64,000 nt of DNA from assembly GCF_009911645.1 (NCBI RefSeq), contig NZ_QWKI01000041.1:1-64000 (forward strand). Reading direction: 5' to 3'. The DNA is from Pseudoflavonifractor sp. 60. Its GTDB lineage: Bacteria > Bacillota > Clostridia > Oscillospirales > Oscillospiraceae. The notes under the pieces are model-generated. The model saw nothing but the letters and a program-made list of their open reading frames with translations. It was not told the origin of the DNA and did not search any database. The first letter of the stretch is position 1. Each line of letters starts with the position of its first letter. The translations under genes were made by a program, and so were the position numbers. Shown here piece by piece: positions 29,473-48,042 of this stretch.

Positions 29473-31104
29473 ATGGCTGACATCCGAAAAAACACTGTCC
29501 ACACCTTGGACATCACTGGCTACACTGCCGAGGGAATGGGGGTGGCCAGGCTGGAGGGGCGGGTGGTATTTGTTCCTTATACCATCCAGGGGGAGCAGTG
29601 GAGAGTCCGCCTGGAGAAGGTAAACAAAAACGTGGCCTGGGGCCGTGGGGTGGAACTGCTCCTCCCCTCCCCTGAGCGCGTTGAGTCCAGCTGCTCCCTG
29701 TACGGCAGATGCGGCGGCTGCCAGTTCTGCCACATGACGTATGCGGAGGAGCTGCGGGCCAAGAGCCGGCGTATTGCCGACGCTTTGGAGCGGGTGGGAC
29801 ACGTCAAATTGGACCTGCCTCCGGTGCTGGGCACGGAACAGCCTTACCGCTACCGGAACAAGGTGCAATTTCCGGTGGCTCAGGGGAAACGGGGGCTGTC
29901 TGTGGGTTACTACCGTCCCCGGAGCCACGATGTGCTGGACGCCTCCGACTGTTTCCTCCAACCCCGGGCAATCACCCAACTGCGGTCAGTCTTTAAAGAC
30001 TGGATGGAAGCCCACAACATATCTGCCTACGACGAGGGAACGGGCAGAGGTCTGATCCGCCACCTCTATGTCCGCACCAACAGCAGGAGAGAAAGTTTGG
30101 TCTGTGTGGTGGCCAACGGAGACAGCCTGCCCCACCACACCGCCCTCACAGATACGCTGCGCCGGGCGGAACCGGCATTGGCAGGGGTGGTACTGAACAC
30201 CAACACGCAGGACACCAACGTCATTCTGGGGGACCGGTACGTCACCCTGTGGGGGCGGGACTGGCTGGAAGAGGAGTTATGCGGACTGACCTTCCGTCTG
30301 TCCGTCCCCTCCTTCTTCCAGATCAATTTGCCCCAAACCCAGCGGCTGTACCAGGCCGCTTTGGACTTTGCCCAGCTCACCGGAACGGAGACCGTGCTGG
30401 ACCTGTACTGCGGCATTGGAACCATCTCCCTGGCTCTGGCCAAGCAGGCGGGGCAGGTCGTCGGCGCGGAGATCGTCCCCCAGGCCATTGAGGACGCTCG
30501 GGAAAACGCCCGGCGAAACGGCGTCAGCAATGTGGAGTTCTTCTGCGGCGACGCCGGGGCGGTGGCCCAGCGACTGACACAGGAAGGAATCCGGCCTCAG
30601 GTCATCTGCGTAGACCCGCCCCGAAAGGGTCTCTCCCCCGCAGTGCCAGCCATCCTGGCCAGTATGGCGCCAAATCGGATCGTCTATGTCTCCTGCGACC
30701 CTGCCACCCTGGCCCGGGACGTAGACCGTTTTCGTCCTCTGGGTTACTGCGCGGTGAGGGCTCAGGGCGTGGACCTCTTCCCCAGAACCGCTCATGTGGA
30801 GACGGTATGCCTTTTGTCCAAACTCAGAGCAGAACACCATATTGAGGTGGACTTGAACCTGGACGAGCTGGATTTGACCGCCGCCGAGAGCAAGGCCACC
30901 TATGAGGAAATCAAGACGTATGTGCTGGAACAGTTTGGACTGAAAGTGTCCAGCTTGTATATATCTCAGGTGAAGCGGAAGTGCGGGCTGGAGGTCGGGC
31001 GGAACTATAACTTGCCTAAATCCGAGGGTCAGAGAGTATCCCAGTGTCCGCCGGAAAAAGAAAAGGCAATTATGGCGGCGCTGGAGCATTTTCAGATGCT
31101 CTGA
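29473..31104 (+). CDS. rlmD: 23S rRNA (uracil-5-)-methyltransferase RlmD/RumA family with C-terminal extension
   Basis: A 543-aa TrmA/RumA-family enzyme that methylates uridine C5 with SAM. A TRAM domain lies at about 5-60. The [4Fe-4S] cysteines are in CSLYGRCGGCQFC (near 75-87) and DASDCF. The SAM motif VLDLYCGIGTISLALA is near 310, and the catalytic Cys and Asp region YVSCDPATLARD is near 410. The last 90 residues form an extra domain (LNLDELDLTAAESKATYEEI through CPPEKEKAIMAALEHF) that I know fused to this enzyme in Clostridia. The gene is intact, and a mobilizable element starts about 50 bp after its stop, suggesting that its 3' flank is an insertion site. Confidence 0.9.
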   Translation: MADIRKNTVHTLDITGYTAEGMGVARLEGRVVFVPYTIQGEQWRVRLEKVNKNVAWGRGVELLLPSPERVESSCSLYGRCGGCQFCHMTYAEELRAKSRRIADALERVGHVKLDLPPVLGTEQPYRYRNKVQFPVAQGKRGLSVGYYRPRSHDVLDASDCFLQPRAITQLRSVFKDWMEAHNISAYDEGTGRGLIRHLYVRTNSRRESLVCVVANGDSLPHHTALTDTLRRAEPALAGVVLNTNTQDTNVILGDRYVTLWGRDWLEEELCGLTFRLSVPSFFQINLPQTQRLYQAALDFAQLTGTETVLDLYCGIGTISLALAKQAGQVVGAEIVPQAIEDARENARRNGVSNVEFFCGDAGAVAQRLTQEGIRPQVICVDPPRKGLSPAVPAILASMAPNRIVYVSCDPATLARDVDRFRPLGYCAVRAQGVDLFPRTAHVETVCLLSKLRAEHHIEVDLNLDELDLTAAESKATYEEIKTYVLEQFGLKVSSLYISQVKRKCGLEVGRNYNLPKSEGQRVSQCPPEKEKAIMAALEHFQML

Positions 31105-31106
31105 TA

Positions 31107-31151
31107 ACAAAACACGGATGCTTTGCCATTTGGTAATCATCCGTGTTTTGT
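31107..31151. terminator. Terminator after rlmD
   Basis: A perfect 14-bp stem (ACAAAACACGGATG and its complement at 31138-31151) with an inner CCA/TGG pair. The 3' arm is T-rich, so it is a likely terminator of rlmD; it lies at the left edge of the mobile element. Confidence 0.7.
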
Positions 31152-31153
31152 GT

Positions 31154-31162
31154 TATCCAAAC
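31154..31162. repeat. Candidate left attachment repeat
   Basis: TATCCAAAC, part of the similar 22-bp stretches at 31143-31164 and 42282-42303. Short cores are normal for serine integrases, but 9 bp can occur by chance. Confidence 0.3.
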
Positions 31163-31164
31163 TC

Positions 31165-32211
31165 CTATACGTTTGTGAGAAGATACGCATTTAATTTGTT
31201 TTTTTCATCAATGTAGGATTGATAGATATTTTTAATTCCAGCTTCTTTGGCCATAGAAATAATCAGGCTTTTATCTACTTGGAATGTTCTCAAGCCGATA
31301 ATAACTCCAGCGGGAACGCACTCTATCATAGCAGGAAGATTCATTTTGCAATTAGCAATCATCCTCCATTCTTCGTCATATTTGTGGCATTCCTTTTTAA
31401 TCAAACTGTTGCGCTCAACTTCCCAAGGAAGAGGTTTAAATTCCCTTTGTAGAAATTCTGGCAACGGGGCACCTAACTTTTGCACCAACTCTTGTCCCAT
31501 AACAAATTTTGCAAAATCGGTTGCATTATGTGGAGTGTCAGAATAATATACTGGATAAACCCGCGTTCTATATTTATAGACGCCACAATTTACACACTTA
31601 TCCATTTTGCCACAATGGGAACTCGCCTCATCACTTAGATCGTACATAAGGCAAAACCCCCTGTGCATATCAGCATATTTCAGCCAAAGAGTTTCATTAA
31701 ATCCATTTTCGGAAAAACAGATGGACAAAATCTCGTCTTGTATTTTCGAACGTAATGTTAGAAGATAAGATAAAAATTGGTTTGTTATTCCGCTTGCAAA
31801 TAACTGTTTTAAGCCCTCGACACTCGTAACTTGCTGAACAAACTCTTGCGGGATGCCAGGTTGATTTTGAAAGGTTTCTTTCATGCCGTTTGCCAACGCA
31901 GCTAATGCCTCAGTGGAGCTATAGTTGCTGACAAATTCTTGACGAATCTTCTCCACGTCAATATGTAAAAAAGTATCAAATGGATCATCATAGCTGCTGG
32001 CTTTAGAAAAAAACAGTTTATTTGAGCGTAAAGCATCAAGATTATTATTATTTACAGCACGATACTTATATAAAAATCTTGGATAATGAATTTTCGCCAT
32101 CAGTTGACTGATTTCATGCGATATATCTTCGCCTGAAAATGAGCATAATGTCTGCCAATAATCCTGCATTTCATCGTGGCTCATAGCAGTTTTTCGTTCT
32201 TCTGCTATCAA
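31165..32211 (-). CDS. DUF2971 domain protein
   Basis: A 348-aa protein. The DUF2971 pattern is visible near residues 45-80: FLYKYRAVNNNNLDALRSN, KLFFSKASSYDDPFD. A conserved CLMYDLSD segment follows at about 190 and a C-terminal EWRMIANCKM region near 280. Function is unknown; such genes often accompany restriction and phage-defence genes, which fits the R-M pair next door. The start is TTG 32211 after GGGAG, or ATG 32181 further in. AT-rich codon use marks it as element cargo. Confidence 0.75.
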   Translation of the reverse strand: MIAEERKTAMSHDEMQDYWQTLCSFSGEDISHEISQLMAKIHYPRFLYKYRAVNNNNLDALRSNKLFFSKASSYDDPFDTFLHIDVEKIRQEFVSNYSSTEALAALANGMKETFQNQPGIPQEFVQQVTSVEGLKQLFASGITNQFLSYLLTLRSKIQDEILSICFSENGFNETLWLKYADMHRGFCLMYDLSDEASSHCGKMDKCVNCGVYKYRTRVYPVYYSDTPHNATDFAKFVMGQELVQKLGAPLPEFLQREFKPLPWEVERNSLIKKECHKYDEEWRMIANCKMNLPAMIECVPAGVIIGLRTFQVDKSLIISMAKEAGIKNIYQSYIDEKNKLNAYLLTNV

Positions 32212-32288
32212 AGAAAATCACTCCCTACACGCCCTACGCCACATTTTTCAATTCTCTAGTACGGTTCTGACAAGGTCACAATCAGTCG

Positions 32289-33206
32289 TCAGTTTTCCCC
32301 ATATAGCGACCGCCTAAGCGCATCACGATAAACATTTCCTTCTGGCAAATTCAATGAGGAAAACGCCTCCTGCACCTTATAAACCGTCGTACAGTGTTCC
32401 TCTATAACCCCCAAATGCCTGATTTGTCCATCAGTCAGTGGAGCATTGTTTATATAGTCATAAGACACAAAATGAATAGAGGCTGGCTGAGTAGGAAAAT
32501 GCGGCAGCTTCTCTCGACCACCCAACCGATTTAGGACTCTTTCAAATACCGGCTGAGGGCATACAAAGTAAAGACCCGTTCGGCACAAATCCTCTCGCTG
32601 CAAAACTTGTCCCTTGTAAATTAACTGCGGAATAATCCGCTTTGAGACGTTCTCCCAATTCAAACCTACTGTGCAGGGGACAACCTCTCTGCTACTCTCC
32701 AGTGTTTGGCGGGCATCACGGTAGTTTCCAGTTGTATCTATTGTCTGCACTTCAATTGCTGTAAACTCAACCAGTTCACCAGTAGCATCAAGTCGAGCAA
32801 GCACCCAATCAACAAAATAGGAGCCTGTCCCTTCTCTCTGCGGAAGGCGAAGTTCCCCGCCCCATCCATGTCCAAAGACGGCAATTGCTCCACCTTCACT
32901 GCGCGCTTTATCAACCGCCGCACAACCAGCATATAAGTTCAAGCTCATACCAAAAGCGTTGTTTGCAATTGTGCGCAGCATCTTATAGTCCTCCGCATAG
33001 ATGCGTATTGGACAGCATATTACATTAGGCGACCCATCCGTTTTCTGTCGGATAGCGCACACGCCGGAAACAATGCGGTCACGAGAAAGTATCTTTGTAC
33101 ATTGTGTTCCCAAAAAAGGACACCGCTTTTGGGCTACTGCTGTGAGCGCCTCATTGGAAGCATCCTCAGCCCGATAGCCAAAAAACTCTGCAATATATCC
33201 AGCCAT
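32289..33206 (-). CDS. NotI-like type II restriction endonuclease
   Basis: A 305-aa protein that I match to the NotI endonuclease family. The N-terminal metal-binding motif is KRCPFLGTQCTK (Cys near 29 and 36), with further Cys at GVCAIR and VICCPIR, as in NotI's iron-binding fold. The nuclease core has SYFVDWVLARLD then EFTAIEVQTIDTTG, a PD-ExK-like Asp...Glu-x-Gln arrangement. The gene begins 3 nt downstream of the cytosine methyltransferase gene. The recognition site cannot be read from sequence; NotI itself cuts an 8-bp GC-only site. Confidence 0.75.
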   Translation of the reverse strand: MAGYIAEFFGYRAEDASNEALTAVAQKRCPFLGTQCTKILSRDRIVSGVCAIRQKTDGSPNVICCPIRIYAEDYKMLRTIANNAFGMSLNLYAGCAAVDKARSEGGAIAVFGHGWGGELRLPQREGTGSYFVDWVLARLDATGELVEFTAIEVQTIDTTGNYRDARQTLESSREVVPCTVGLNWENVSKRIIPQLIYKGQVLQREDLCRTGLYFVCPQPVFERVLNRLGGREKLPHFPTQPASIHFVSYDYINNAPLTDGQIRHLGVIEEHCTTVYKVQEAFSSLNLPEGNVYRDALRRSLYGEN

Positions 33207-33209
33207 ATG

Positions 33210-34400
33210 TTATTTGTCCTCCAGCAACATGGATTTAAGTGTCAGGCCAACCGCTTCGGCAAGAAGTGGCGGTACGGCGTTTCCTACTTGGGCAAATTGT
33301 TCTGCCATTGTCCCTGTAAAAATATAGTGGTCGGGAAAAGATTGAATTCTGGCAGCTTCCCTTACCGTGAATGAACGTTCCTGCTCATAGTGAAAGTATG
33401 CTCCCCAGTGCGGATCACATTTTGTAAGTATTGTGGACGCAAGCCCATCAGGAGTTACCCTGCCATATCGCTTGGTATGGTCTCCCCTGTTGGCTCGCTT
33501 CATTCCTTTCGGCAATAAATCTTCTGGAATATCCGTCCAATTTCCTCCCGGTTTAATATGCTTCAGCCGCTCCAAATTTATCTTTGACAGGCGTGGAGCT
33601 TCATGGTTATACACACCGGGACTGCCAATTCTTAGCCTGCGTTGGTAATCGCAGAAAGGTTCAGAGATATATTCTTTTACCTCTGTGCCACGTTCTCCAC
33701 ATATGAGTGGCGGCAAATCGCCAATAGCCTCTTTTACTGTCGTGAATGCTGCGGACACTTCTGGCGCTGGAAGTTTAACGAGCATCTGTCCATCAAATGT
33801 CGTTGTGAAATTTGGCCTGATTGGTGCGTGGTAAATCGGTTCGGGAAATGCAACAGACGGAAGAATTTTCCCTCTTAATCCAAGAATGATTGTACGCCAC
33901 CGCATTTGGGGAACACCATAATACGCTGCGCCCAAAATCCTGACATCAGCACCGTATCCTAATTGAGCAAGAGCGTCCAAGATGGCGTGTAAAGTAGCCC
34001 CGTGTTCAAATGACACCAGGCCAGGAACATTTTCTATCAATACTGCTCTTGGAGCAAATATGTCCACAAAACGCAAGTATTCCTTAAACAAATGATTTCG
34101 CTGATCCAATACACTGCGCACAGGAGCATTGATAGAAAATCCCTGGCAGGGCGGACCACCCGCTAACAGATCCAGCTGTCCGCGCTCTAACCCTAAATCA
34201 GATAGAACCTCTCCAGCATCAAGTGAGCGGATATCTGCGGTAAAGACTTTAGCCCCCGGGTGATTCAGTTTATAGGTGTTTGCATAAGCAGGCACAATTT
34301 CGGATGCAAAGAGGCTATGAAAGCCAGCTTCAGATAGTCCCTCTGAAAGCCCACCTGCGCCAGCAAATAAATCCAACATCGTAAGCGTATTGTTCACCAT
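33210..34400 (-). CDS. DNA (cytosine-5-)-methyltransferase
   Basis: A 396-aa C5 methyltransferase protecting DNA from the paired endonuclease. Motif I is LDLFAGAGGLSEGL (residues 9-22), motif IV with the catalytic Cys is GGPPCQGFSI (near 83), motif VI is IENVPG (near 127), motif VIII lies near the RWRTIILGLR segment, and motifs IX-X are at the C-terminus (ARIQSFP, QVGNAVPPLLAEAVG). The target-recognition region lies between about 180 and 320. It is the first gene of the R-M pair. Confidence 0.93.
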   Translation of the reverse strand: MVNNTLTMLDLFAGAGGLSEGLSEAGFHSLFASEIVPAYANTYKLNHPGAKVFTADIRSLDAGEVLSDLGLERGQLDLLAGGPPCQGFSINAPVRSVLDQRNHLFKEYLRFVDIFAPRAVLIENVPGLVSFEHGATLHAILDALAQLGYGADVRILGAAYYGVPQMRWRTIILGLRGKILPSVAFPEPIYHAPIRPNFTTTFDGQMLVKLPAPEVSAAFTTVKEAIGDLPPLICGERGTEVKEYISEPFCDYQRRLRIGSPGVYNHEAPRLSKINLERLKHIKPGGNWTDIPEDLLPKGMKRANRGDHTKRYGRVTPDGLASTILTKCDPHWGAYFHYEQERSFTVREAARIQSFPDHYIFTGTMAEQFAQVGNAVPPLLAEAVGLTLKSMLLEDK

Positions 34401-34474
34401 AACACCACCTCTTTGTTGTTCAATTCTTCTTGTTTGCTATATTACCACAAAATAGTACATTATGCAACGGGGCA

Positions 34475-34990
34475 TTACATAACAGCACAAGATATCGGGT
34501 CAATGATATGGACATCTCTATTCAGCTTCCGAGCATACCTCACCGTCATCGCTGTCCCGCCCCGCCACTCGCCATTGTAGACAGCCAGCAGACAGGCGGC
34601 GTGATCGACCAGATAACGGTTGCGTTTCAGCATACAGCCCTCATGGTATTCCTGGCTCACATACACGACCTCATCCGCTTGTTCCAAAATAGAAAAATAA
34701 AGTTCCCGCGCCGAAGCCGACCACCCATCTGCCTGTTCTTCACAGGGCAGAACACAGTGGAGTTTCAGCGCGGGATTTTCTTTTTTCAAGGCCAGAACAG
34801 TCAACGATGCCCAGGTATCCGCACCCTCTGCCATACCGGAGAAGAAGTCCGTATATCCAGCATCCACCAGCTTGGTAATCTCCTTGGCAAGCGTTTCTTT
34901 CAGCGCGACACATCGGGCATCGGACTCGTTGTAACCCCAGGGGAACTTCCTCGGACGATGGCCGGTGAATGCACAAGATTTCAATTCCAT
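34475..34990 (-). CDS. SLOG-family (DUF1273/YpsA-like) protein
   Basis: A 171-aa Rossmann-like SLOG protein. It begins CAFTGHRPRKF and has FFSGMAEGADTWAS near 50, ELYFSILEQADEVVYVS near 95 and CLLAVYNGEWRGGTAMTV near 135, the nucleotide-binding signatures of the YpsA/DUF1273 group. Roles are poorly defined; some SLOG proteins sense nucleotide signals in conflict systems. AAAGGAG precedes ATG 34990. It is divergent from the XRE gene, and the shared region has palindromic operators. A paralogue lies at 63171-63671 in another element. Confidence 0.8.
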   Translation of the reverse strand: MELKSCAFTGHRPRKFPWGYNESDARCVALKETLAKEITKLVDAGYTDFFSGMAEGADTWASLTVLALKKENPALKLHCVLPCEEQADGWSASARELYFSILEQADEVVYVSQEYHEGCMLKRNRYLVDHAACLLAVYNGEWRGGTAMTVRYARKLNRDVHIIDPISCAVM

Positions 34991-35006
34991 AATGTATCTC
35001 CTTTAT

Positions 35007-35075
35007 TACGCAGTTGCGTATATTAAGGATAGCAAAATTTTCTGAGTTACGCAAGTGCGTATACGCTTCTGCGCA
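35007..35075. promoter_or_regulatory. Operator array TACGCA-N2-TGCGTA
   Basis: Perfect copies at 35007-35020 and 35048-35061 (41 bp apart) and an imperfect copy (two changes) at 35062-35075, between the divergent SLOG and XRE genes. The adjacent XRE protein is the likely binder. Confidence 0.65.
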
Positions 35076-35108
35076 TAATATTTTATCCTGTTTCAGGGTG
35101 AGATGGAT

Positions 35109-35351
35109 ATGCGTATCAAGCCAGCAATCGTTCAACGGTTCCAGCAATTATGTAAAGAACGGAATATCAAGTATAATGAGCTAGCTACTCTATCAGGGGT
35201 AACTCCTTCGACCGTATACAGCATGATGGACAACACACGCAAGGATTTATCGGTAATTACGGTCAAAAAGCTATGTGATGGGCTAGACATCACTATCACA
35301 GAATTTTTCAATGCTCCAATTTTTGAACAGCTAGAACAGGAGCTACAATAA
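35109..35351 (+). CDS. XRE-family transcriptional regulator
   Basis: An 80-aa single-domain helix-turn-helix protein (QRFQQLCKERNIKYNELATLSGVTPSTVYSMM). ATG 35109 has correct spacing to GGTGAG; ATG 35103 abuts the site. Likely a repressor of its own promoter and of the SLOG gene through the TACGCA palindromes. A long hairpin starts at its stop codon. Confidence 0.85.
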   Translation: MRIKPAIVQRFQQLCKERNIKYNELATLSGVTPSTVYSMMDNTRKDLSVITVKKLCDGLDITITEFFNAPIFEQLEQELQ

Positions 35352-35398
35352 AACAGCGGCAGTGTTTACCCAGGCATGGATAAACACTACCGCTGTTT
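35351..35398 (+). terminator. Long hairpin after the XRE gene
   Basis: AAACAGCGG-C-AGTGTTTA pairs with TAAACACT-A-CCGCTGTTT: 17 bp with one C/A mismatch and a 12-nt loop. There is no T tract afterwards, so it may act as a structured RNA or weak terminator. Confidence 0.55.
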
Positions 35399-35700
35399 CC
35401 ATTTTCGGGTCATGGGGCCGGACTGCGTTTGGCAGTCTATGGCCACACAGCTCCCGAAAATGGCGGGGGTTTCCAAAGGGGGCGGTCCCCCTTTGGCACA
35501 CGACTTTTGGAACGCAGTGGAAAAAGTCTAGTGTGTTATACCTTTTGCCCCGGCTGGCGTGGGAAAGGGGATGTACGGGAGGACAGCCGCTTTCCCGCAC
35601 CAGGAAAGCAGGCGGAGGAATGGAGCGGCAGCGATCATTCCTCCACCTGCTTTCGAAAGGGGCAAAAGGTATATACAGCCACCGTCCTTCGTCCCTCGTC
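35399..35700 (+). other. Densely folded non-coding region around oriT
   Basis: Successive inverted repeats: 35399-35409 with 35453-35463 (11 bp); 35421-35426 with 35432-35437; 35473-35482 with 35487-35496 (10 bp, perfect); the oriT hairpin 35497-35535; 35537-35551 with 35659-35673 (15 bp, perfect); 35604-35622 with 35636-35654 (18 of 19 bp). Pairs 35551-35556/35584-35589 and 35561-35567/35590-35596 interleave as a possible pseudoknot. No ORF with a ribosome binding site is present. Confidence 0.65.
35497..35545 (+). other. oriT: Origin of transfer (oriT), MobV/pMV158 type
   Basis: CACAC and GACTTTT pair with AAAAGTC and GTGTG across a 13-nt loop, and the 3' arm leads into TAGTGTG-TTATAC (35529-35541). 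The pMV158 MobM oriT has the same layout and cuts at TAGTGTG/TTA, which here falls between 35535 and 35536. A MobV relaxase gene lies 3.6 kb away in the same element. Transfer of the plus strand would lead with the sigma/helicase/relaxase side. Confidence 0.8.
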
Positions 35701-35714
35701 CCGCCGCAGCGACA

Positions 35715-36284
35715 TCAATGCGGCAGCCTGCGCCGTAAATCGTTCAGCGCGGCTTGTTCCGTTTTCTGCGCCCGCTTCACTGTCAACCGGAAGTGCGCCG
35801 CTGTTTCTGGAATGGGATGCTCGTCCCCATCGGTAAAACCGTAGCGGTAGAGCAGATAAGTCCGCTCCCTGGCGGAAATCTGTCGCAGGCCCTCGTGCAG
35901 TTCGGCGTAGGTTTCTGCTTGCAGAACAATTTGCTCCGGGGATTTTCTGTAAGCCTGCGGAAGAGAAAAATCCTCCAACTCATCCAGGCTGATCTCATCA
36001 GATGCAGTGACGATGCTAACTGACTCCTGCATGAATTTCCTGATCCACCAGACAGCGTAGGTCAGAAATTTCGTGCCGCGCTCCGGGACAAAGCGACTGA
36101 TCGCCTCCATCAGACCGAAGCAGCCCTCTTGAATGAGGTCGTCCACATCAAGACGATTACCACCATATCGTTCAATAAATTGATTGGCTTGTTGTTGGAT
36201 AAAGGCCAGATTATTTTCCAGCAGTTGGTCCCGGGCATCTATGCTGCCATTCCTGGCAAGTACACAGAGTTCTTCATTGCTCAT
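35715..36284 (-). CDS. Sigma-70 family RNA polymerase sigma factor
   Basis: A 189-aa sigma factor. Region 2 is clear (NRLDVDDLIQEGCFGLMEAI, then GTKFLTYAVWWIRKFMQESV, about 50-100). Region 4 is shorter (ISARERTYLLYRYGF, then RLTVKRAQKTEQAALNDLR). ATG 36284 overlaps the end of the upstream XRE-type gene by 11 nt, so the two are coupled. Sigma factors of this type occur near transfer genes in clostridial mobile elements and probably drive element promoters. Confidence 0.85.
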   Translation of the reverse strand: MSNEELCVLARNGSIDARDQLLENNLAFIQQQANQFIERYGGNRLDVDDLIQEGCFGLMEAISRFVPERGTKFLTYAVWWIRKFMQESVSIVTASDEISLDELEDFSLPQAYRKSPEQIVLQAETYAELHEGLRQISARERTYLLYRYGFTDGDEHPIPETAAHFRLTVKRAQKTEQAALNDLRRRLPH

Positions 36285-37077
36285 GCGCTGCCCTGGGGAG
36301 AGCTTCAAAGAGAGAAACAACGCCAGACCGGAAGACTGACAGCTTGTCCGGGTCAAAAACAGAAGTGTCCACCGTATGTAAAATGGCATCCGTCATTTGC
36401 TCTGGCGTGATTTCAGTCAGGGGCCTGTCCTCGCCCTTCGTAAGCTCCGCCATCATCTGCGCCACGATTTCCTTGGTTGCCGCCTGCTTTGCCGCTAACT
36501 CGGAAGCCATATCTTTTTTCATTTCTTTGAGCATCACCATAAAGGTGTTTTGAATTTTGGACAGCTCAACTTGGTACGGCGGTATCTTGGAAAGTGCTGT
36601 TGCCTGTGCTGCGTCCCGCTGTCCACACCCCATCAACAACAGCTCACCCATGGAGGCAAAAATCTGGTTCTGGACGGCAACTCCTGCCGCCAGGGTATCA
36701 TCAAAATACTGTGCGATCATTGTGGTCAGCATGGCAAATCGGGGATGCTCCAGCATTCGGCTGACAACCTCACTGTTGACTTTCCCAGTGTAGAGGTTCC
36801 GCGCCGCCAGTGCCGTCAGTCTCAGTTCCTCAATGTCATAATTTTTTCGGTCGGGAATGTTCGTCAGGCCCAGCAGAAAGTCGGCGGATACGTTAAATTC
36901 CCGCACCAGGGCGGTCAACACCTCATCACTGAATTTCTGTATCTGTCCGCTTTCCAACCGGCTGAGGGTAGATGTACTGACACCCACTCTTTCCGCCAAT
37001 TCTTCTCTTGTAAAGCCACGCTGTTCCCGCAGTTCCGCCAGTCGCTGACCTATCGTTCCCGGTAAAAATTCCACCAT
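36274..37077 (-). CDS. XRE-family regulator with long C-terminal domain
   Basis: A 267-aa protein. An N-terminal HTH (GQRLAELREQRGFTREELAERVGVSTSTLSRLESG, about 9-43) is followed by a helical domain of unknown fold rich in Met, Ala and Lys. ATG 37077 has AGGGAGGTG upstream; the frame extends to 37308 without a site. It precedes and overlaps the sigma gene, suggesting a regulator/sigma pair controlling transfer or excision. Confidence 0.82.
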   Translation of the reverse strand: MVEFLPGTIGQRLAELREQRGFTREELAERVGVSTSTLSRLESGQIQKFSDEVLTALVREFNVSADFLLGLTNIPDRKNYDIEELRLTALAARNLYTGKVNSEVVSRMLEHPRFAMLTTMIAQYFDDTLAAGVAVQNQIFASMGELLLMGCGQRDAAQATALSKIPPYQVELSKIQNTFMVMLKEMKKDMASELAAKQAATKEIVAQMMAELTKGEDRPLTEITPEQMTDAILHTVDTSVFDPDKLSVFRSGVVSLFEALPRAAHEQ

Positions 37078-37286
37078 TACGCACCTCCCTGTCGTATTCT
37101 TGATTTTAGCACAGCATTTCCGCAATAAAGCACGAATTATGTCGGTTTGGAGTTTGCATTTCTGCAAATTATCCGGGCCGATTTTTATTTTCCAGTCAGT
37201 TTTGCAAAAAATGGGGGCCAAAGCCGGTTTTTCCGTATATTGAGATAGGCAAATGAAAACGCCAATCTTTTTACGGAGGAATGCAG

Positions 37287-38624
37287 TTGAACAACTATGA
37301 AGCAACAAATCACGCCGCCCGCCTGCCGCCAGGGATGAAGGACTGGCCCGCCTGGTTCGACGGCAAGAAGATCAATGAAGTCCTGTTCTGTGAGGAATTT
37401 CTGCAAGATCACCCCATGCTCTGTATTCACGATGCTTTTTTCACCACGGAGGGCCGGGTGATGGATGAAACGATGCTGAAAAAGGAAATTCTGGATCGCA
37501 TCAAGTCCTATGTCACTTCCGGCGTGGCGAAGCGGGCGGCAAACTTGTTGGACGCTCTGCGGGTGGAGTGCTGGTCGCCGCCCCTGCTGGTCTTTCAAGA
37601 CAGGATACACGTTGCCAACGGCACATTTTTTCTTAGCGGCACATTTTCAGAGGCAAAAGATTTCTGTATCAACCGCCTGCCAGTCCGTTATGTGCCGGAT
37701 GCTCCGCCGCCAGTGAAGTGGCTGGCGTTTCTGGCTGACCTTCTGGAACCGGACGACATTCTGACCCTCCAGGAGTTTATAGGCTACTGCCTCATTCCCT
37801 CCACAAAAGGGCAGAAAATGCTTATCATCACTGGTAGAGGCGGTGAAGGGAAATCACGGCTGGGGTTGGTATTCCGCGCCCTGCTGGGGCAGAACATGAA
37901 TACCGGCAGCATCGCCAAGGTTGAGACAAATCCCTTTGCCCGTGCCGACCTGGAGCATGAGCTGCTGATGGTGGACGATGACATGAAACTGGAGGCTCTT
38001 CCCCAAACCAATCACATCAAGGCAATCGTCACCGCAGAATTGCCCATGGATTTGGAGAAGAAAGGCAGGCAGAGCTATCAAGGCCAACTGTATGTCCGCT
38101 TCATTGGCCTGGGCAATGGGACGCTGCACTCCCTCTATGACCGGAGCGTCGGTTTCTTCCGGCGACAAATCATCCTGACTGCCAAAGAACGTCCGGCCAA
38201 CCGGGTGGACGACCCATTTATCGCAGAAAAGATGTGCGCCGAGGCGGAAGGCATCTTCCTGTGGGCGCTGGAGGGTCTGCGGCGGCTGATTGCTAATAAC
38301 TATCGTTTTACTATCAGCCAGCAGGCCCAGGAAAATATGAAAGCGGCGGTGGCAGATGGCAACAACATTGTTGAATTCATGCAGTCCACCGGATATATCG
38401 TCTTTCAGCCGGACGCTGCTTCCAGTTCCAAAAACCTGTATGCCGCCTACAAGCTGTGGTGTGAGGACAATGCCTATAACACACTTTCCATGAAAAGTTT
38501 CTGCAATTATCTCACTCAAAATGCCGGAAACTACGGCATCAGCCACACCAACAACATCTACATCGGCAACGGCAGGCGCTCCAGAGGTTTTACTGGCCTG
38601 CAAGTGCTGATACCGCATTTTTGA
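37287..38624 (+). CDS. SF3 helicase / P4-type primase C-terminal protein
   Basis: A 445-aa replication protein. It resembles the D5_N plus superfamily 3 helicase part of phage P4 alpha-type primases: Walker A ITGRGGEGKSRLG near 180, Walker B ELLMVDDDM near 218, sensor-1-like region IVTAELPMDL near 240, and a C-terminal winged-helix region (NLYAAYKLWCEDNAYNTL). No primase (AEP or TOPRIM) domain is present. Likely needed for autonomous replication of the excised element. TTG 37287 lies 7 nt from GGAGG; ATG 37281 is only 1 nt from it. Confidence 0.8.
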   Translation: MNNYEATNHAARLPPGMKDWPAWFDGKKINEVLFCEEFLQDHPMLCIHDAFFTTEGRVMDETMLKKEILDRIKSYVTSGVAKRAANLLDALRVECWSPPLLVFQDRIHVANGTFFLSGTFSEAKDFCINRLPVRYVPDAPPPVKWLAFLADLLEPDDILTLQEFIGYCLIPSTKGQKMLIITGRGGEGKSRLGLVFRALLGQNMNTGSIAKVETNPFARADLEHELLMVDDDMKLEALPQTNHIKAIVTAELPMDLEKKGRQSYQGQLYVRFIGLGNGTLHSLYDRSVGFFRRQIILTAKERPANRVDDPFIAEKMCAEAEGIFLWALEGLRRLIANNYRFTISQQAQENMKAAVADGNNIVEFMQSTGYIVFQPDAASSSKNLYAAYKLWCEDNAYNTLSMKSFCNYLTQNAGNYGISHTNNIYIGNGRRSRGFTGLQVLIPHF

Positions 38625-38650
38625 AAATAGACAGTGACCCGAAATCTCCC

Positions 38651-38698
38651 GTACAATGCGTACAAGCGTACACCGCCGTACTCATGTACGCAATGTAC
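38651..38698 (+). repeat. Six GTAC repeats at helical-scale spacing
   Basis: GTAC occurs at 38651, 38660, 38668, 38678, 38686 and 38695, steps of 8-10 bp, in the 348-bp non-coding gap (38625-38972) between helicase and relaxase genes. It may be an operator or iteron cluster. The rest of the gap is AT-rich with no ORF. Confidence 0.5.
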
Positions 38699-38972
38699 GC
38701 TTCTTTTGCGGTCAGCGGTAGATTTTTCAGCGGTAATGTGGACGGGGTAATATAGTAGGTCACCTTTGTTGCTAAAACTTCGACATTTTTCAAATCCGCA
38801 AACTTTTTGATGCAGTCGAGAATAAATTTTACGGAACCGTGTTTCTCGAAAGCGTAAACAAATTTTCCGATTTTACAGACATTTTCATCATTTCAACAAA
38901 AGTCACTCGGAAGCACGAAATCGAAGGGCGCTTCTATTGCGTGACAACCATGTAGAAATCAGGAGGTTTTTA

Positions 38973-39185
38973 TTGAACATCAGAAATGAAATCAAAGCGC
39001 AGATCGTCCGCGCCGGGTACACCATGCAGGAGGTTGTAGATATGCTCGCCGCTGAACACAGCTGGAGCGACAGCGTGTCCAATCTCTCCGCCAAATTGCA
39101 GCGGGGTTCGCTGCGGTACATTGAGGCCATTCAGCTGGCCGATGTGCTGGGATTTGATTTGGTCTGGAAACGGAGGGATAAGTGA
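38973..39185 (+). CDS. Small DUF6471-like helix-turn-helix protein
   Basis: A 70-aa protein starting at TTG 38973, six nt after a perfect AGGAGG. The sequence (IRNEIKAQIVRAGYTMQEVVDMLA, then NLSAKLQRGSLRYIEAIQLADVLGFDL) looks like a short HTH protein of the DUF6471/XRE kind. Its TGA overlaps the relaxase ATG, so it is probably a mobilization accessory or regulator. Confidence 0.75.
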   Translation: MNIRNEIKAQIVRAGYTMQEVVDMLAAEHSWSDSVSNLSAKLQRGSLRYIEAIQLADVLGFDLVWKRRDK

Positions 39186-40156
39186 TGGACAAACCGCAAT
39201 ATGCTATTCTCCGCTTCGCCAAGTACAAGGGGCCGGAGATCGGCCACATCGAAGCCCACAATGAGCGCACCAAGGAGAAGTACGTCAGTAATCCCGACAT
39301 AGATACCAGTCGGACCCACCTCAATTTCCACCTTATCCAGCCGGAGCGGAAATACCGTGCGGAGGCGGAGAGGCAGATCGCCGAGGCCAAATGCCGTATC
39401 CGCAAGGACAGCGTTCGGGTGGTGGAGACATTGGTGACGGCCAGCCCAGAATTCTTCAAGGGCAAAAAGAAAGCAGAAATCAGAGAATTCTTCGAGGAAG
39501 CCGTCCGTTTCATAGAAAAATATCAGTCGAAAGACACGATCATATCCGCCGTGGTGCATATGGACGAGAAAACGCCCCATATGCACCTTTCTTTTGTTCC
39601 GCTGACGGCGGATGGGCGGCTGAGCGCCAAGGACATCGTAGGCAATAAGAAGAAACTGATTTGGTGGCAGGATGAGTTCTGGAAGCACATGGTAAAGAAG
39701 TGGCCGGACTTTGAGCGAGGCGAGAGCGCCAGCGAAACCGGCAGGACGCATATCCCGCCCCGGCTGTTCAAGGAGGCGGCCCACCTCAACCGTCAGCGGG
39801 ATATGCTGTTGCAGCTGTTGGGAGAGGTCAATCCGCTCAACGCCAAAAAGAAAAGCGCCGAGATCGAGGCGCTGCTGGAGCAGTATATTCCCGGCGTAGA
39901 GCGGATGCAGACGAAACTGCGGAAGTACGATGCCGCTTACAAAGACCTCCAGGCCGAAAATACCGCCTTGAAAAAGAAGGATGATGCTAGCCGGGAGAGC
40001 GTCAAGCGCCGCTTGGAGGTGGCGCAGCAGCTTCAAGAGCTGGACGGTCTGCGCCAGGTGGTGGAGAATATCCCGCTGGAGATTTTACAGGCGTATCAGC
40101 AGAGTTCTACATTGACACAGAAGGAGGTTGGCGCAAAGAATGCCCTTGACCGATGA
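39185..40156 (+). CDS. mobV: MobV-family relaxase (Pre/Mob)
   Basis: A 323-aa plasmid recombination/mobilization enzyme of the MobV group. The N-terminus has AILRFAKYKGPEIGHIEAHNERTKE (motif I with the nucleophile His, HNERT). Motif III HMDEKTPHMHLSFVPL near 120-135 is the HxDExPHxH metal site. The C-terminal third is a coiled coil (about 215-300). It should nick and covalently bind the oriT at 35535/35536. ATG 39185 overlaps the upstream stop. Length is at the short end of the family. Confidence 0.92.
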   Translation: MDKPQYAILRFAKYKGPEIGHIEAHNERTKEKYVSNPDIDTSRTHLNFHLIQPERKYRAEAERQIAEAKCRIRKDSVRVVETLVTASPEFFKGKKKAEIREFFEEAVRFIEKYQSKDTIISAVVHMDEKTPHMHLSFVPLTADGRLSAKDIVGNKKKLIWWQDEFWKHMVKKWPDFERGESASETGRTHIPPRLFKEAAHLNRQRDMLLQLLGEVNPLNAKKKSAEIEALLEQYIPGVERMQTKLRKYDAAYKDLQAENTALKKKDDASRESVKRRLEVAQQLQELDGLRQVVENIPLEILQAYQQSSTLTQKEVGAKNALDR

Positions 40157-40322
40157 ATGGAGCGGACTTGCCACGTTGCTGGCAAATCTGATTGAGAAGT
40201 ATGCATCGGACTTGGGGCTTGATGATATGCCCTTTCCAAGCGTTTATCAGACCGGGATCGGAGCTGACGAGAAATCCTGTCAGAACCATAAATCCAATAT
40301 TGAAAAGACTGTTGCGATATGA
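40140..40322 (+). CDS. Small protein overlapping the relaxase gene end
   Basis: A 60-aa ORF beginning MPLTDEWSGLATLLANLIEKYA, with AAGGAGG about 13 nt upstream. It overlaps the last codons of the relaxase gene in another frame. The function is unknown; its composition and position suggest a real accessory gene. Confidence 0.5.
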   Translation: MPLTDEWSGLATLLANLIEKYASDLGLDDMPFPSVYQTGIGADEKSCQNHKSNIEKTVAI

Positions 40323-40328
40323 TATAAT
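40300..40328 (+). promoter_or_regulatory. Promoter of the serine integrase
   Basis: TTGAAA (40300-40305), a 17-nt spacer and a perfect TATAAT (40323-40328). The leader then contains the 16-bp hairpin at 40353-40391. Confidence 0.75.
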
Positions 40329-40352
40329 CATAAACGTGATATGAATATCCAA

Positions 40353-40391
40353 ACTTACTGTTGGAGAGAAAGACGCTCTCCAACAGTAAGT
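40353..40391 (+). promoter_or_regulatory. Perfect 16-bp leader hairpin before the integrase
   Basis: ACTTACTGTTGGAGAG and its exact complement flank a 7-nt loop between promoter and start codon. There is no T tract, so an operator or RNA control element is more likely than a terminator. It may also be an att-related repeat. Confidence 0.6.
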
Positions 40392-40416
40392 GGATAACAG
40401 GAAATGTGAGGTTATC

Positions 40417-42098
40417 ATGCGCAAAGAAAAAGAGAAGGTTTATATCTACACCAGAGTATCCACTACCATGCAGATCGACGGTTACTCCCTGGATGCGCAA
40501 AAGGCCAGAATGAAAGCGTTCGCGGATTTCAACAACTATGAAATCGTTGGAGAATATGAGGACGCAGGCAAATCCGGCAAATCTATTGAGGGCAGAATTC
40601 AGTTCAGCCAGATGATGGAGGACATCAAATCCGGGAAAGACGGTATTTCCTATGTTTTGGTGTTCAAACTCTCCCGCTTTGGCAGGAACGCCGCAGATGT
40701 TCTCTCCACTCTGCAAATCATGCAGGACTTTGGGGTGAACCTGATTTGCGTAGAGGATGGCATTGACTCCTCAAAAGATGCTGGGAAATCCTGATTTCCG
40801 TTCTCTCTGCGGTGGCGGAAATTGAGCGTGAAAATATTCGTGTCCAAACCATGGAGGGCCGTATCCAGAAGGCTAGAGAGGGCCGTTGGAATGGGGGCTT
40901 TGCGCCCTATGGCTATCGTCTCACGGACGGTAATCTGGAGATCAACGAGGAAGAAGCGGAGGCCATTCGCGTTATATTTGAGCAGTACACCTCCACTGAC
41001 ACCGGCGCAAACGGTATCTCAAAGTATCTGGAAACTCACGGTATTCGTAAGATGCAACGCCAAAATGGGAAAAATCCGCTGTTTGATGCCGGTTTAATCC
41101 GTAAAATCTTGAAAAATCCTGTCTATTGCGGAAAAATCGCTTACGGGCGACGAAAGACAGAGAAAATCCACGGCACTCGAAATGACTACCATCTGGTAGA
41201 GCAGGACAATTATCTTTTGGCAGACGGTCAGCATGAGGGAATTGTGTCCGAGGATGTCTGGCAGATGGCCCAGGTGAAGCTGTTGGCCCAGGCTAAGAGA
41301 TACGAACACGTGAACAGGGGGCAAAGCGAACGGACGCATTTGCTCACCGGAATTGTGAAGTGTCCCATCTGCGGAGTTGGTATGTATGCCAACAAGTGCA
41401 TCAAGTACAAAAAGGACGGGACGAAATACAAGGACTTTTTCTACTATGGGTGCAAACACCGCACCATGCAGCGGGGACACAAATGCGATTATCGAAAGCA
41501 AATCCGGGAGGAATTGCTGGACGATGCTGTGGCAGAGGTCATTGTCAAGCTGGTGAGTAACCCCAGATTTGCGGCAATGATGCAGGAAAAAATCAACATG
41601 AAGGTAGACACCGCCGCTATCGACCAGGAAATCGCCAATTACGAAAAGCAGCTGCGTCAGAGTTATTCTATCAAGTCTAAGCTGATGGAGGAAATCGACT
41701 CCCTTGACCCAGATGACCGGCATTACATCAAACGCAAAGCCGACCTTGACGACCGGCTTTATAAGATGTACGATAAGATTGAAGAAAGCGAGTCCCAGCT
41801 CATTACAGCCAGGGCCAAGAAGCAGGCCATTGAAGCGGAGAAAATCACTGGCGATAACATCTACAAAGTCTTGATTTACTTCGATAAGCTGTATACAATG
41901 ATGAATGATGTGGAGCGGCGGCAGCTGATCGAGGCTCTGATTGCAGAAATCCAGATTTACGAAGAACGCCAGCCCAATGGACAATGGCTGAAATCCATCA
42001 AGTTCAAGCTGCCAATCATTGAACAGGACATGAATTTAAGTTTGGACAATGATGAGCAAGTGGAGACTATCGTGTTGCTACAAAGAGAAAACTCGTAG
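40417..42098 (+). pseudogene. Large serine integrase, frameshifted
   Basis: A serine recombinase of about 560 aa split by a frameshift. The catalytic domain starts at ATG 40417 (VYIYTRVSTTMQIDGYSLDAQKAR, nucleophile Ser in TRVS) and continues to SKDAGKS, then TGA at 40792. The sequence resumes one frame over as AVAEIERENIRVQTMEGR. Restoring one base near 40789 gives the usual GKLLISVLSAVAEIE joint. The recombinase domain, zinc ribbon (CPICGVGMYANKC) and coiled coil are otherwise intact to 42098. Either recent inactivation or a sequencing error. Confidence 0.85.
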
Positions 42099-42254
42099 AA
42101 ATCCTGTGTTTCCAATACTTTGCCCGTCATGTGGTGTTTGACGCCGAGGGCGATAAACTCCGCAATAAACGCATTGAGGACTATATCACTGTTTCGGCCG
42201 TCATTGATATGGAGTGCGGGAACTCAAAAACGGCAAAGAGCAAGGATAGGCGAA
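42099..42254 (+). other. Short gap at the right end of the element, possible gene remnant
   Basis: An open stretch from 42131 reads VFDAEGDKLRNKRIEDYITVSAVIDME. It looks like the end of some protein but has no start site. I do not recognise it. Confidence 0.3.
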
Positions 42255-42291
42255 CGCCGCAGACTTTGAAAAAGGTCTGCGGCGTTTTGTT
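42255..42291 (+). terminator. Terminator at the right end of the element
   Basis: A 13-bp stem (CGCCGCAGAC... with 42272-42284, one G-T wobble) followed by TTTTGTT. Confidence 0.8.
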
Positions 42292-42292
42292 A

Positions 42293-42301
42293 TATCCAAA
42301 C
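42293..42301. repeat. Candidate right attachment repeat
   Basis: TATCCAAAC, matching 31154-31162; again directly after a hairpin ending GTTTTGT. Confidence 0.3.
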
Positions 42302-42376
42302 ACCGAACGGAGAGGAAAACCCCAATCCCGCACGGAGAGGAACAAAGACTATATTTCACATTATCATGAAGGGAAT

Positions 42377-43567
42377 TTATTTCAACTCACAAAGCAAAGA
42401 ATAACCCATTGTTCCGTCTGGCATATTTGCGCCAAAATTATCCGCTATGGTAGCGCCTATCACTGCGAAAGTATCACATTCAGGAATGGCTCCCCCGCCC
42501 TTCATAGAGGGTGAATAGGCCAAAAAAGGTACTTTCTCCCTGGTATGGTCAGTCCCAGTATGGGTTGGGTCGTTGCCGTGGTCCGCCGTAATGATGAGCA
42601 AATCGTCTTCCCGCAGGATATCCAGAAGTTCGCCTAATTTTTCATCAAAACGCTCCAGTTCGCCGGCGTATCCTTTCGGGTCCCGCCGGTGTCCCCAAAG
42701 GGCATCGAAATCCACCAGATTTACAAAGCACAGGCCATGAAAATCCCCCTTTGCAGTCTCAATGGTCTGCTCCATACCGTGAACGGAGCTTGTAGATTTT
42801 TGGGCTTGGGTGATCCCCTCACCATCAAATATGTCCCGAATCTTGCCAATTGAAATGACATCCAGGCCGTTGGCTTTCAGGGCGTCCAGGGCAGTTTTGC
42901 CAAAGGGCTTCAGGGCATAATCGTGCCGGTTGCTGGTTCGTTTGAACTCGCCCTTCTTTTTTCCTACATAGGGGCGGGCAATCACGCGGCCCACTTTCCA
43001 CTCCTCTCTCATGGTGAGCTCACGGGCAATTTCACAGCAGCGGTACAACTCATCCAGGCCAAAGGTCTCCTCATTCCCGCAGATTTGCAGCACGGAATCC
43101 GCAGAGGTATACACGATCATGTGTCCTGTGGCAATTTTCTCCTCGGCCAGCTCCTCCAAGATTTCCGTTCCGCTGGCGCTCTTATTTCCGATGATGGTTC
43201 TGCCAGTCCTCTGCTCCAGCTCGGCAATCAGCTCCGGCGGGAAGCCGTTTTCTGTAAATGTGCGAAACGGCTGCTTGACCTCCAGTCCCATCATCTCCCA
43301 ATGGCCGGTCATGGTATCCTTTCCCCAGCTCTTTTCCCGCAGAACTCCATAGTAGCCCCGGGAGATCTCTGCCGGCTCGACCTGTTTCAAAGGCGTCAGG
43401 TTTGCGATACCCAATGTTTGCAGATTTGGAATGCGGAGGGTTTCCACCGCCTGGAAAATATGTCCCAGGGTATTCACGTCAACATCGCCAAATGCCGGGG
43501 AATCCTCCATCGCGCCAACGCCCAGCGAATCCACCACAATGACAAAGATACGCTTATAAGCTTCCAT
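42377..43567 (-). CDS. deoB: Phosphopentomutase
   Basis: A 396-aa DeoB that interconverts (deoxy)ribose-1-phosphate and -5-phosphate in nucleoside salvage. Metal-binding motifs of the alkaline phosphatase superfamily are visible: VVDSLGVG (Asp near 10), [12 protein letters not shown] near 86-97, and [22 protein letters not shown] near 334-355. ATG 43567 is preferred because AAGGGGAG lies 7 nt upstream; ATG 43573 is too close. It overlaps the deoD remnant by 14 nt. It is the only intact gene of this operon. Confidence 0.95.
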
Positions 43568-46212: not shown

Positions 46213-48042
46213 TTACACATTTTGGAGTTTCCCAAAAAATATCCCCAATCGCCCCGTCAATTCAATTTCTTCTCCGCAGCATTTGCAGACCAGCTTAAAT
46301 GGCTGACCGACAACGTGTTCGCCGGCCTTCATCATCTGGTAGCGTTCCCGGCTCTTGACTCGATGGCGGTGCAGGGATGCCTGCCGCTTTTCTTCCTCCG
46401 GCGTCAACTCCGGGGCCGGGAGGTCGAACCGCCCAATAAACTTCAGATAAATCTCGACTTCCTGCGTCCTGTCGCCGTCAATCTTTTCCGGGGCATAGAC
46501 GATGATTTTTTCGATAAACTCGTTGATCATGGGCGTAGTCAGTTCCGAAAAGTCCGTGTACTTCTTTGCCAGGGCGAGGAACCGTTCCACATTGGCGGTG
46601 TCCTGCTCGAAACTGTTCAGTGCCGATTCCGCCTCCGTGACGGCCTGCCGGAGCGTTGCCTGTTCCTGCTCATACCCGGCAAGGAGAGTGTCAAAGCGTT
46701 CCTCACCGATGCGCCCCACCGCATAGGATTCGTATAGCTTCTTGATGATGGTGTCCAGTTCTTCACAGCGTCGCCTGTCTTTGTTCAATTTGCGTTTCAG
46801 GTCTTTCGCCGCCTGCGCCTGCCGGACTTCGGACGCCGCTCGAACTTTTTGGATAAACTCCGTTTCGTTGGAGATGGCATAGGTGCTGGCAGCCCGGATT
46901 GTCTCCAGGATCAGCGTCCGCAGTGCCTTTGTAGAGATATGATGATTACTGCAGGCACTGTCATGATACTGCCGGGCCAGCGTGTAAGTGGAGCAGTCGA
47001 ACCAGTCCGAGGAATAGGGCTTGGTGGCGGTTCCCTGTGAACGGTGATTATACAGCTTCGCGCCGCAGTCGGCACAGTAGAGAAGCCCGGTCAGGGGATT
47101 GGCCTCGCCGATGGTGTCGTGGCGGCGGGGTGTATTTCTCAGTTTCTGGGCAAGCTCCCAGGTCTCTTTATCCACGATGGCCTCATGGGTGTTTTCAAAA
47201 ATCAGCCAGTCCTCTGGCGAGTGGACAATGGCCCGTTTGTCCTTGTAGGACTCCTTGTGGGTGCGGAAGTTGACCGTATGGCCCATATACTCCGGTTTAG
47301 AGAGAATCTGCCCGACCGCAAACCCGTTCCAGCTATAAGGCCGGGGGATGTCCTCTCTGCTTTTCCATACGCCCCGCCCCTGTCTGGCGAAATAGGTGGC
47401 AGGCGTCTCGATCTTCTCTTCGCAGAGCATCGTGGCGATCTCATAGGGGCCGCGGCCCTCGATAGTAAGCTGGAAGATACGCCGCACGACTGCCGCCGCT
47501 TCCTCGTCAATCAGCCAGTGATATTTGTCATTGGGGTCTTTCTTGTAGCCGTAGATGGCACAGTTGGTGGTGGGCTTGCCGGACTCACCCTTGACCCGGA
47601 TGGCGGTGCGCTGCTTGCGGCTCAGGTCCCTCAAATACCATTCGCTCATGATGTTGACAAAGGGAGCAAACTCGCTGGAACTGGGGTCATCGCTGTCGAT
47701 GCTGTTGCCAATGGCAATAAAACGCACCCCAAATTTTCTGAAGAGGACTTCCGTATAAAAACCGGTTTGGAGATAATCTCTGCCGATTCTGCTCATGTCC
47801 TTCGTCAGCACCAGGGCCACTTTCCCGGCCTCAATGTCAGCAATCAGCCGTTTCCATGCCGACCTGTCGAAGTTGCCGCCCGACCATCCGTCATCACAGT
47901 AGGCGGCGTAGAGGTTCCAGCCCTGCTCCTGCACATAGCGGCTAAGCATGATTTTCTGATTTTCGATGGACACACTCTCGCCGGTTCTCTCATCATCCCG
48001 GCTGAGCCTGCAATAGATTCCAACATTGTATTTTTCCTGCAT
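46213..48042 (-). CDS. Large serine recombinase (TndX/TnpX-like)
   Basis: A 609-aa recombinase. The catalytic domain (1-150) has VGIYCRLSRDDERTGESVSIENQ with the nucleophile Ser in CRLS, and the conserved DMSRIGRDYLQTGFY. The recombinase domain spans about 165-290. A zinc ribbon follows (LLYCADCGAKL, then CSTYTLARQYHDSACSNHH), then a coiled coil (400-470) and a DUF4368-like tail with a CKCCGEEIEL zinc pair. The gene is intact and could move the element carrying the two genes upstream of it. Confidence 0.93.
   Translation of the reverse strand: MQEKYNVGIYCRLSRDDERTGESVSIENQKIMLSRYVQEQGWNLYAAYCDDGWSGGNFDRSAWKRLIADIEAGKVALVLTKDMSRIGRDYLQTGFYTEVLFRKFGVRFIAIGNSIDSDDPSSSEFAPFVNIMSEWYLRDLSRKQRTAIRVKGESGKPTTNCAIYGYKKDPNDKYHWLIDEEAAAVVRRIFQLTIEGRGPYEIATMLCEEKIETPATYFARQGRGVWKSREDIPRPYSWNGFAVGQILSKPEYMGHTVNFRTHKESYKDKRAIVHSPEDWLIFENTHEAIVDKETWELAQKLRNTPRRHDTIGEANPLTGLLYCADCGAKLYNHRSQGTATKPYSSDWFDCSTYTLARQYHDSACSNHHISTKALRTLILETIRAASTYAISNETEFIQKVRAASEVRQAQAAKDLKRKLNKDRRRCEELDTIIKKLYESYAVGRIGEERFDTLLAGYEQEQATLRQAVTEAESALNSFEQDTANVERFLALAKKYTDFSELTTPMINEFIEKIIVYAPEKIDGDRTQEVEIYLKFIGRFDLPAPELTPEEEKRQASLHRHRVKSRERYQMMKAGEHVVGQPFKLVCKCCGEEIELTGRLGIFFGKLQNV

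Follow-up and report, generated by a model that had tools for sequence, protein, structure and literature searches.

A predicted MobV-type origin of transfer detached from its relaxase gene and followed by a conserved post-nick fold in an integrative mobilizable element of Pseudoflavonifractor sp. 60

The origins of transfer (oriTs) of MobV systems have so far been modelled on that of plasmid pMV158, a site of about 43 nt beside the relaxase gene. In pMV158, the relaxase is reported to stay on the 5' end while the coding strand is transferred (PMC5090054, PMC5863519), and its relaxase MobM is described as needing supercoiled or single-stranded DNA and as switching hairpins there (PMC5863519). 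IMESag-rpsI is described as an integrative element whose relaxase is of the MobV type and whose oriT resembles that of pMV158; this oriT adjoins mobSag, and a putative ssoA follows the gene (PMC5090054). In ICEBs1, the stem-loops of sso1 lie downstream of oriT on the transferred strand and resemble plasmid sso sequences, and the location of sso downstream of oriT was argued to keep att single-stranded until recircularisation (PMC4595007). Folded DNA in a leading region is also reported for the single-strand promoters Frpo and ssi, Frpo being that of the F plasmid (PMC11541004).

The site analysed here lies in a stretch of 64,000 nt from Pseudoflavonifractor sp. 60, referred to below as the window. 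It shares with pMV158-type (MOBV1) oriTs the nick core TAGTGTG/TTA, the CACAC...GTGTG hairpin, a MobV relaxase and the coding-strand orientation. The hairpin and nick core were confirmed letter by letter at the positions given in the initial annotation: CACACGACTTTT (35497-35508) is followed by a 13-nt loop, AAAAGTC (35522-35528), a TA bulge and GTGTG (35531-35535), with TTATACC next. The start of mobV (39182) was found 3,646 bp downstream of T35536 on the same strand, in agreement with the distance of about 3.6 kb first reported, and Pfam and NCBIfam matches together with the ORF positions bore out the sigma factor, regulator and helicase genes said to lie between the two (Table 1). In five classical MobV plasmids, by contrast, the nick is 68-81 bp from mobV. 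IR2, the repeat spanning the nick, has 7 of 9 pairs here compared with 9 of 9 in pMV158, and 5-7 pairs across the 56 related sites defined below. MobV oriTs are an established kind of site, of which the present one is a variant; since it is not directly upstream of the mob gene, it was filed as a variant and not under the classical layout.

Table 1. Coordinates of the features of the oriT region and of the surrounding element (positions in the window)
Feature	Position	Strand	Basis
Integrative mobilizable element in the 3' end of rlmD/rumA	30796-42067		Homology limits, recombinase tail
Proposed att core GTGGAGAC	30796-30803 (attL), 42060-42067 (attR)		Present at both homology limits
Cargo: type II restriction endonuclease, NotI-like	32289-33206	-	Profile matches
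Cargo: C5-cytosine methylase	33210-34400	-	Profile matches
Hairpin 0, 10-bp stem directly 5' of the CACAC arm	35473-35496	+	Inverted-repeat search, relatives
IR1/IR3-type oriT hairpin, CACAC-GACTTTT-loop-AAAAGTC-TA-GTGTG	35497-35535	+	Sequence, DNA fold, kept in relatives
Predicted nick TAGTGTG/TTA	35535-35536	+	Identity with the reported pMV158 nick (PMC5863519), DNA fold
Outer stem, proximal arm, TATACCTTTTGCCCC	35537-35551	+	Inverted-repeat searches, relatives
Inner hairpin A with conserved GGAAAGGGG motif	35554-35603	+	Fold, alignments, covariation, model
Inner hairpin B, with numerous compensatory changes between relatives	35604-35654	+	Fold, alignments, covariation
Outer stem, distal arm, GGGGCAAAAGGTATA	35659-35673	+	Inverted-repeat search, relatives
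Sigma-70 family factor	35715-36389	-	Profile matches
XRE-type regulator	36274-37308	-	Profile match
DUF5906 / P4-family primase C-terminal (D5-like) helicase	37281-38624	+	Profile matches
mobV relaxase, 324 aa	39182-40156	+	PF01076 E 3.9e-53; NCBIfam MobV
Large serine recombinase, two ORFs (40390-40794, 40812-42098)	40390-42098	+	ORFs, profile matches

Several observations bear on the value of the motif itself. With at most one mismatch allowed, TAGTGTGTTA matched the window twice where 0.75 matches were expected, and 16 of 100 shuffles reached this count of 2; TAGTGTGTTATAC occurred a single time in the 4.38-Mb genome. The 71-nt hairpin region by itself folded no better than its shuffles (z -0.60; 51/200 as good). 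As sequence evidence, the 10-mer core alone is weak, and conservation is decisive.

A search confirmed MobV relatives in 362 stretches, and the best 80 of the 362 were analysed. Among these 80, AGTGTGTTA was found upstream on the mobV strand in 51, at distances of 1,184-8,814 bp, and the exact 9-mer occurred 52 times compared with 5 times for the reversed control. The core was present in 46 of the 49 that had at least 5 kb of upstream sequence, and absent from three (L025, L026, L051) despite about 9 kb upstream; the other 26 without the core all had less than 5 kb. Since 51 of the best 80 relatives carried the core 1.2-8.8 kb upstream, detachment of oriT from mobV is usual in this MobV family. 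The distance pointed out in the initial annotation stands, but it is not the striking feature that it was taken for. One site (L012) was assigned to a different oriT variant on the opposite strand, and in another relative (L061) a site resembling TAGTGGG/TTATACG precedes mobV by 142 bp. In IMG/VR, two of seven relatives had the site on the mobV strand, lying 3,960 and 1,591 bp upstream of the gene; both carriers have at least 5 kb of upstream sequence and the other five less than 5 kb.

A pattern search independent of MobV was also run on 245 genomes, and it returned 13 sites in 11 genomes, compared with none for the reversed pattern. All seven sites with enough contig downstream had MobV 3.4-4.7 kb downstream on the same strand, which supports the oriT independently of the MobV search. 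For the other six, the contig ends 14-1,175 bp downstream, and on this ground the idea that they are orphan oriTs without MobV was rejected. A rival oriT beside mobV was looked for and none better was found, the sole closer near-match being AAGTGTGTTA (38477-38486), on the wrong strand and inside the helicase gene. This genome has two further MobV genes, each of which lies next to a site of its own, with 234 bp and about 78 bp between nick and gene. With strand, order and hairpin conserved in relatives, the claim of a pMV158-type MobV oriT detached from its relaxase gene is supported, and judged by sequence comparison the initial annotation was right in substance. We conclude that the site is very probably a MobV-type oriT of an integrative mobilizable element. 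Two carriers of such elements have unexpected labels. One record (L135, MT836484.1) was deposited as a bacteriophage and carries this type of MobV and oriT, so that it is perhaps a mobilizable element and not a phage; another MobV element (L037) is on a contig binned as Akkermansia, which may reflect a binning error or cross-phylum transfer.

The ends of the element were mapped by homology. The homology of two related loci (L008, L011) with the window stops at 42067, while that of L009 runs to 42347 and that of L010 to 42111. On the other side, rlmD homology in six congeneric loci stops at window positions 30803-30816, and in a seventh (L118) it reaches 30891, which is the end of its contig. 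The C-terminus of the recombinase has the appearance of an rlmD-like tail, and rumA (rlmD) is reported as an integration site for serine-integrase elements in streptococci (PMC5357655). Since the att 8-mer GTGGAGAC is common in the window (6 on the + strand and 2 on the - strand, one of the eight inside mobV), placement of the ends relies on the homology limits and the reading frames, and gives an element size of about 11.3 kb. The part shared by blastn with L008, L009 and L011 begins at 34523-34526, and the DUF2971, restriction endonuclease and methylase genes (31165-34400), being outside this part, are cargo of this copy. The DUF2971 protein (31165-32211), which adjoins the restriction-modification genes, matches the PADLOC candidate defence family PDC-S31. 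The element ends enclose oriT, mobV and the restriction-modification genes, which supports the reading that the oriT belongs to an element that also carries the restriction system; however, the frame of the serine recombinase is split in two here, whereas it is a single open frame in L008-L011, and the present mobility of this copy is therefore doubtful. The split could be real or an assembly error. T4SS genes of its own were not found among the subset of the element's ORFs scanned with Pfam; the genome has nine VirD4-like matches, which are possible helpers.

Other features were seen at and beyond the ends. At 30804-31104, the element seems to give RlmD a C-terminal extension of about 100 aa, and similar DNA stands away from rlmD at G010:C145 (L112). 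A stretch of about 100 bp (42249-42347) recurs elsewhere in this genome (C182 and, in part, C192) as well as in congeners, and may be the terminus of a different mobile element. Another large serine recombinase, which contains DUF4368, is encoded at 46213-48042, so that the region may hold more than one element.

The structured unit around the nick is larger than the hairpin first noted and covers 35473-35673; its conserved post-nick part had been missed. The ssDNA fold of 35470-35690 had a z of -10.85, with none of 200 shuffles as good, and is made up of hairpin 0 followed by the IR3 hairpin and the post-nick fold. Between the latter two, the prediction leaves just one base unpaired, T35536, which adjoins the nick. 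The opposite strand also folds strongly (z -9.83), because inverted repeats necessarily fold on both strands. With T35536 taken as the first nucleotide, nucleotides 2-16 (35537-35551) form a fully paired outer stem with 35659-35673, and this stem encloses further hairpins. Larger versions of the fold in relatives have a further helix besides hairpins A and B.

Conservation of the outer stem was analysed at 56 distinct sites, defined as an exact AGTGTGTTATAC with at least 120 nt downstream after removal of identical rows (62 before). At least 10 of 11 Watson-Crick pairs were found at 47 of the 56, compared with 0.11% of 2,800 letter shuffles, in which letters are exchanged one by one without preserving dinucleotides. 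Across those 47 sites, the end of the distal arm is 91-228 nt past the nick. The outer stem is absent at L045 and L071, and L133/L139 is cut by the contig end. On the other side of the nick hairpin, hairpin 0 has at least 5 contiguous Watson-Crick pairs at 34 of 54 sites (2 of the 56 were skipped), compared with 8% of letter shuffles. At one locus (L072:498-520), the post-nick module is shrunk to a short palindrome, TATACCTATAGGTATA.

Covariation was counted in two alignments, A1 with 12 close relatives and A2 with 14 other sites. Double changes were found in 13 of 59 pairs of A1 compared with 5.9 in shuffles, and in 37 of 61 pairs of A2 compared with 22.5; in both cases none of 500 shuffles was as high. 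Correspondingly, 97.0% of cells were paired in A1 and 91.9% in A2, compared with 41-48% and 38-50% with slid partners. The structures tested are RNAalifold consensus folds from these very alignments, a derivation that works in their favour. Further pair types were less distinctive, being matched by 1 of 500 shuffles in A1 and 64 of 500 in A2. Wobble pairs were used to compare the two strands. At the outer-stem positions without a Watson-Crick pair, a G.T pair fits the transferred strand in 17 cases and the opposite strand in 2, while 13 others fit neither. With consensus folds derived without G-U pairs, for fold groups holding 45 of the 56 sites, wobbles fit the transferred strand by 64 to 28. 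Since the rows are related and not independent, this bias is support and not proof.

To look at the anchoring of the fold to oriT, a model of its inner part (R1) was used. It holds neither the nick nor the outer stem, save two bases in some rows, and has hairpin A as its only structure (15 pairs), with hairpin B included as sequence. In the 245 genomes, R1 gave 15 matches with E values of at most 4.4e-6, and all 15 begin 15 nt past the nick core. Two of them (the window and L124) belong to its training set of 21 of the 56 sites, and six are new relative to the pattern search. The outer stem was found at 14 of the 15 and the remaining one is cut by a contig end. Nine of the 13 pattern sites were recovered by R1; of the four that it missed, three run into a contig edge within 55 nt, and at the fourth (G059:C1:330405) the downstream sequence is complete and the fold is from another group. 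Five weaker matches (E 0.0026-0.0087) consist of two antisense copies of the same places and three without the core. Since 15 first-look candidates per genome were scored with strict filters, weak copies standing on their own may have escaped detection. The idea of a MITE with terminal repeats was rejected, as the arms differ between elements yet stay complementary and all 15 strong model matches are at the nick. Relatives vary the letters of the fold yet keep its pairs, and its position, conservation, covariation and anchoring to the nick are established at the level of comparative analysis.

The fold was compared with known sequences and with other MobV systems. Rfam families were found neither in the window at 31000-42500 nor in seven relative loci. 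Blastn of 35480-35720 against 72,556 plasmids returned only the 39-nt oriT core, in one record, and no known sso or plasmid region. A description of the post-nick fold was not found in the literature searched, which consisted largely of titles and abstract openings. In the five classical MobV plasmids, the best post-nick stem has 7-8 of 11 pairs, within the bulk of the shuffles, whereas the stem is conserved in the present family. A sixth plasmid (L161) has 9 of 11 pairs at a detached exact pMV158 oriT and 7 of 11 at the site beside mobV. Among MobV systems that are more remote or organised in another way, the outer stem also has 9 of 11 pairs at L004 in the same genome, in an E. faecalis tet(O) region and on a contig labelled as phage, a level reached by 1.6% of shuffles; a Pusillibacter plasmid, with mobV 4.4 kb away, has 10 of 11. 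The conserved fold is the new finding of this work.

These comparisons set the locus apart from the systems described above. It differs from IMESag-rpsI, as presented in its report (PMC5090054), in that the oriT is detached from mobV and a fold starts at the nick. Unlike the reported sso1 of ICEBs1 (PMC4595007), the fold is without a match to plasmid sso sequences, and an sso role is putative. In contrast to the Frpo and ssi promoters as reported (PMC11541004), a scan found no -35/-10 pair here. A single-stranded promoter for leading genes was rejected, because a promoter-like pair was not found and the fold is beyond the 3' ends of the sigma factor and regulator genes; on this wrong side of convergent genes, it would be badly placed to drive them.

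We propose that MobV would bind the hairpin at 35497-35535 on the + strand, cut between G35535 and T35536 and stay on the 5' end. The strand would leave in the order nick, sigma factor, regulator, helicase, mobV, att junction and restriction-modification genes, and would exit by way of a helper's coupling protein and T4SS. Its first ~140 nt (~90-230 in relatives) would fold from the second base past the nick, the outer stem would enclose the further hairpins, and the oriT of this MobV family would exceed the pMV158 minimum. Since strand and order match those reported for pMV158, the fold would enter the recipient first. It may be a start of second-strand synthesis after recircularisation, or a scaffold for the relaxosome or for termination. 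From a start within 140 nt of the nick, copying would run back to the nick and would continue only after ligation; this fits the reasoning reported for the ICEBs1 sso (PMC4595007). Taken as a whole, a MobV oriT of an integrative mobilizable element with a post-nick fold of the transferred strand working in transfer is a quite probable account. That the post-nick fold acts on the transferred strand seems likely, and we infer that it folds there as ssDNA and not as RNA. Given such action, the chance that it would be a second-strand start is about even.

Other explanations of the same observations were considered. The repeats and hairpins could act in double-stranded form, as protein-binding sites or as a cruciform whose extrusion would open the nick in the donor, which would agree with the nick at a single unpaired base between two predicted folds, with the folding of the opposite strand and with the DNA forms and hairpin switching reported for MobM (PMC5863519). 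However, compensatory changes along several helices are needless for plain binding sites, nor would such sites favour wobbles of one strand, and we consider action as duplex rather unlikely. Both of these features would be left by a structured + strand RNA, since an RNA of the same sense and ssDNA yield an identical pattern of covariation and wobbles. An RNA beside oriT that aids mobilization also has a precedent in the sgm-sRNA of SGI1, reported as an essential sRNA beside oriT (PMC9299015). Nevertheless, a scan of 35000-36600 revealed neither a sigma-70-like promoter nor, on the + strand past the distal arm, a terminator-like site, and the Rfam searches of the window and the seven relatives were negative. 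Another type of promoter is possible, because the element has its own sigma factor. The first pair of the fold is one base beyond the nick, and the strong R1 matches are all anchored to it; a position so tied to the nick argues against an RNA, which appears improbable.

The motif could, lastly, be a decayed or coincidental oriT, with mobV acting elsewhere. Its near-chance frequency in the window and the split frame of the recombinase are in line with this, but strand, order, hairpin and post-nick fold are the same in dozens of relatives, the search near mobV gave no better site, and the adjacent sites of the two other MobV genes belong to those genes. Decay or coincidence can hardly be the explanation, and we retain a MobV oriT whose post-nick fold would act on the transferred strand.

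For the MobV family of gut Clostridia as a whole, there is an even balance for and against a general form of this proposal, in which a nick-anchored, multi-branch fold of the transferred strand, kept by compensation, would be an sso or a part of the relaxosome and would travel with oriT independently of the position of mobV. The functional unit in these gut elements is probably more than 200 nt long and detached from mobV. The fold can be found in genomes without the nick sequence, and this may help to locate oriTs in fragmented assemblies. If it is true that the transferred strand folds, the way in which mobilized elements lacking an evident sso start their second strand in the recipient would become testable.
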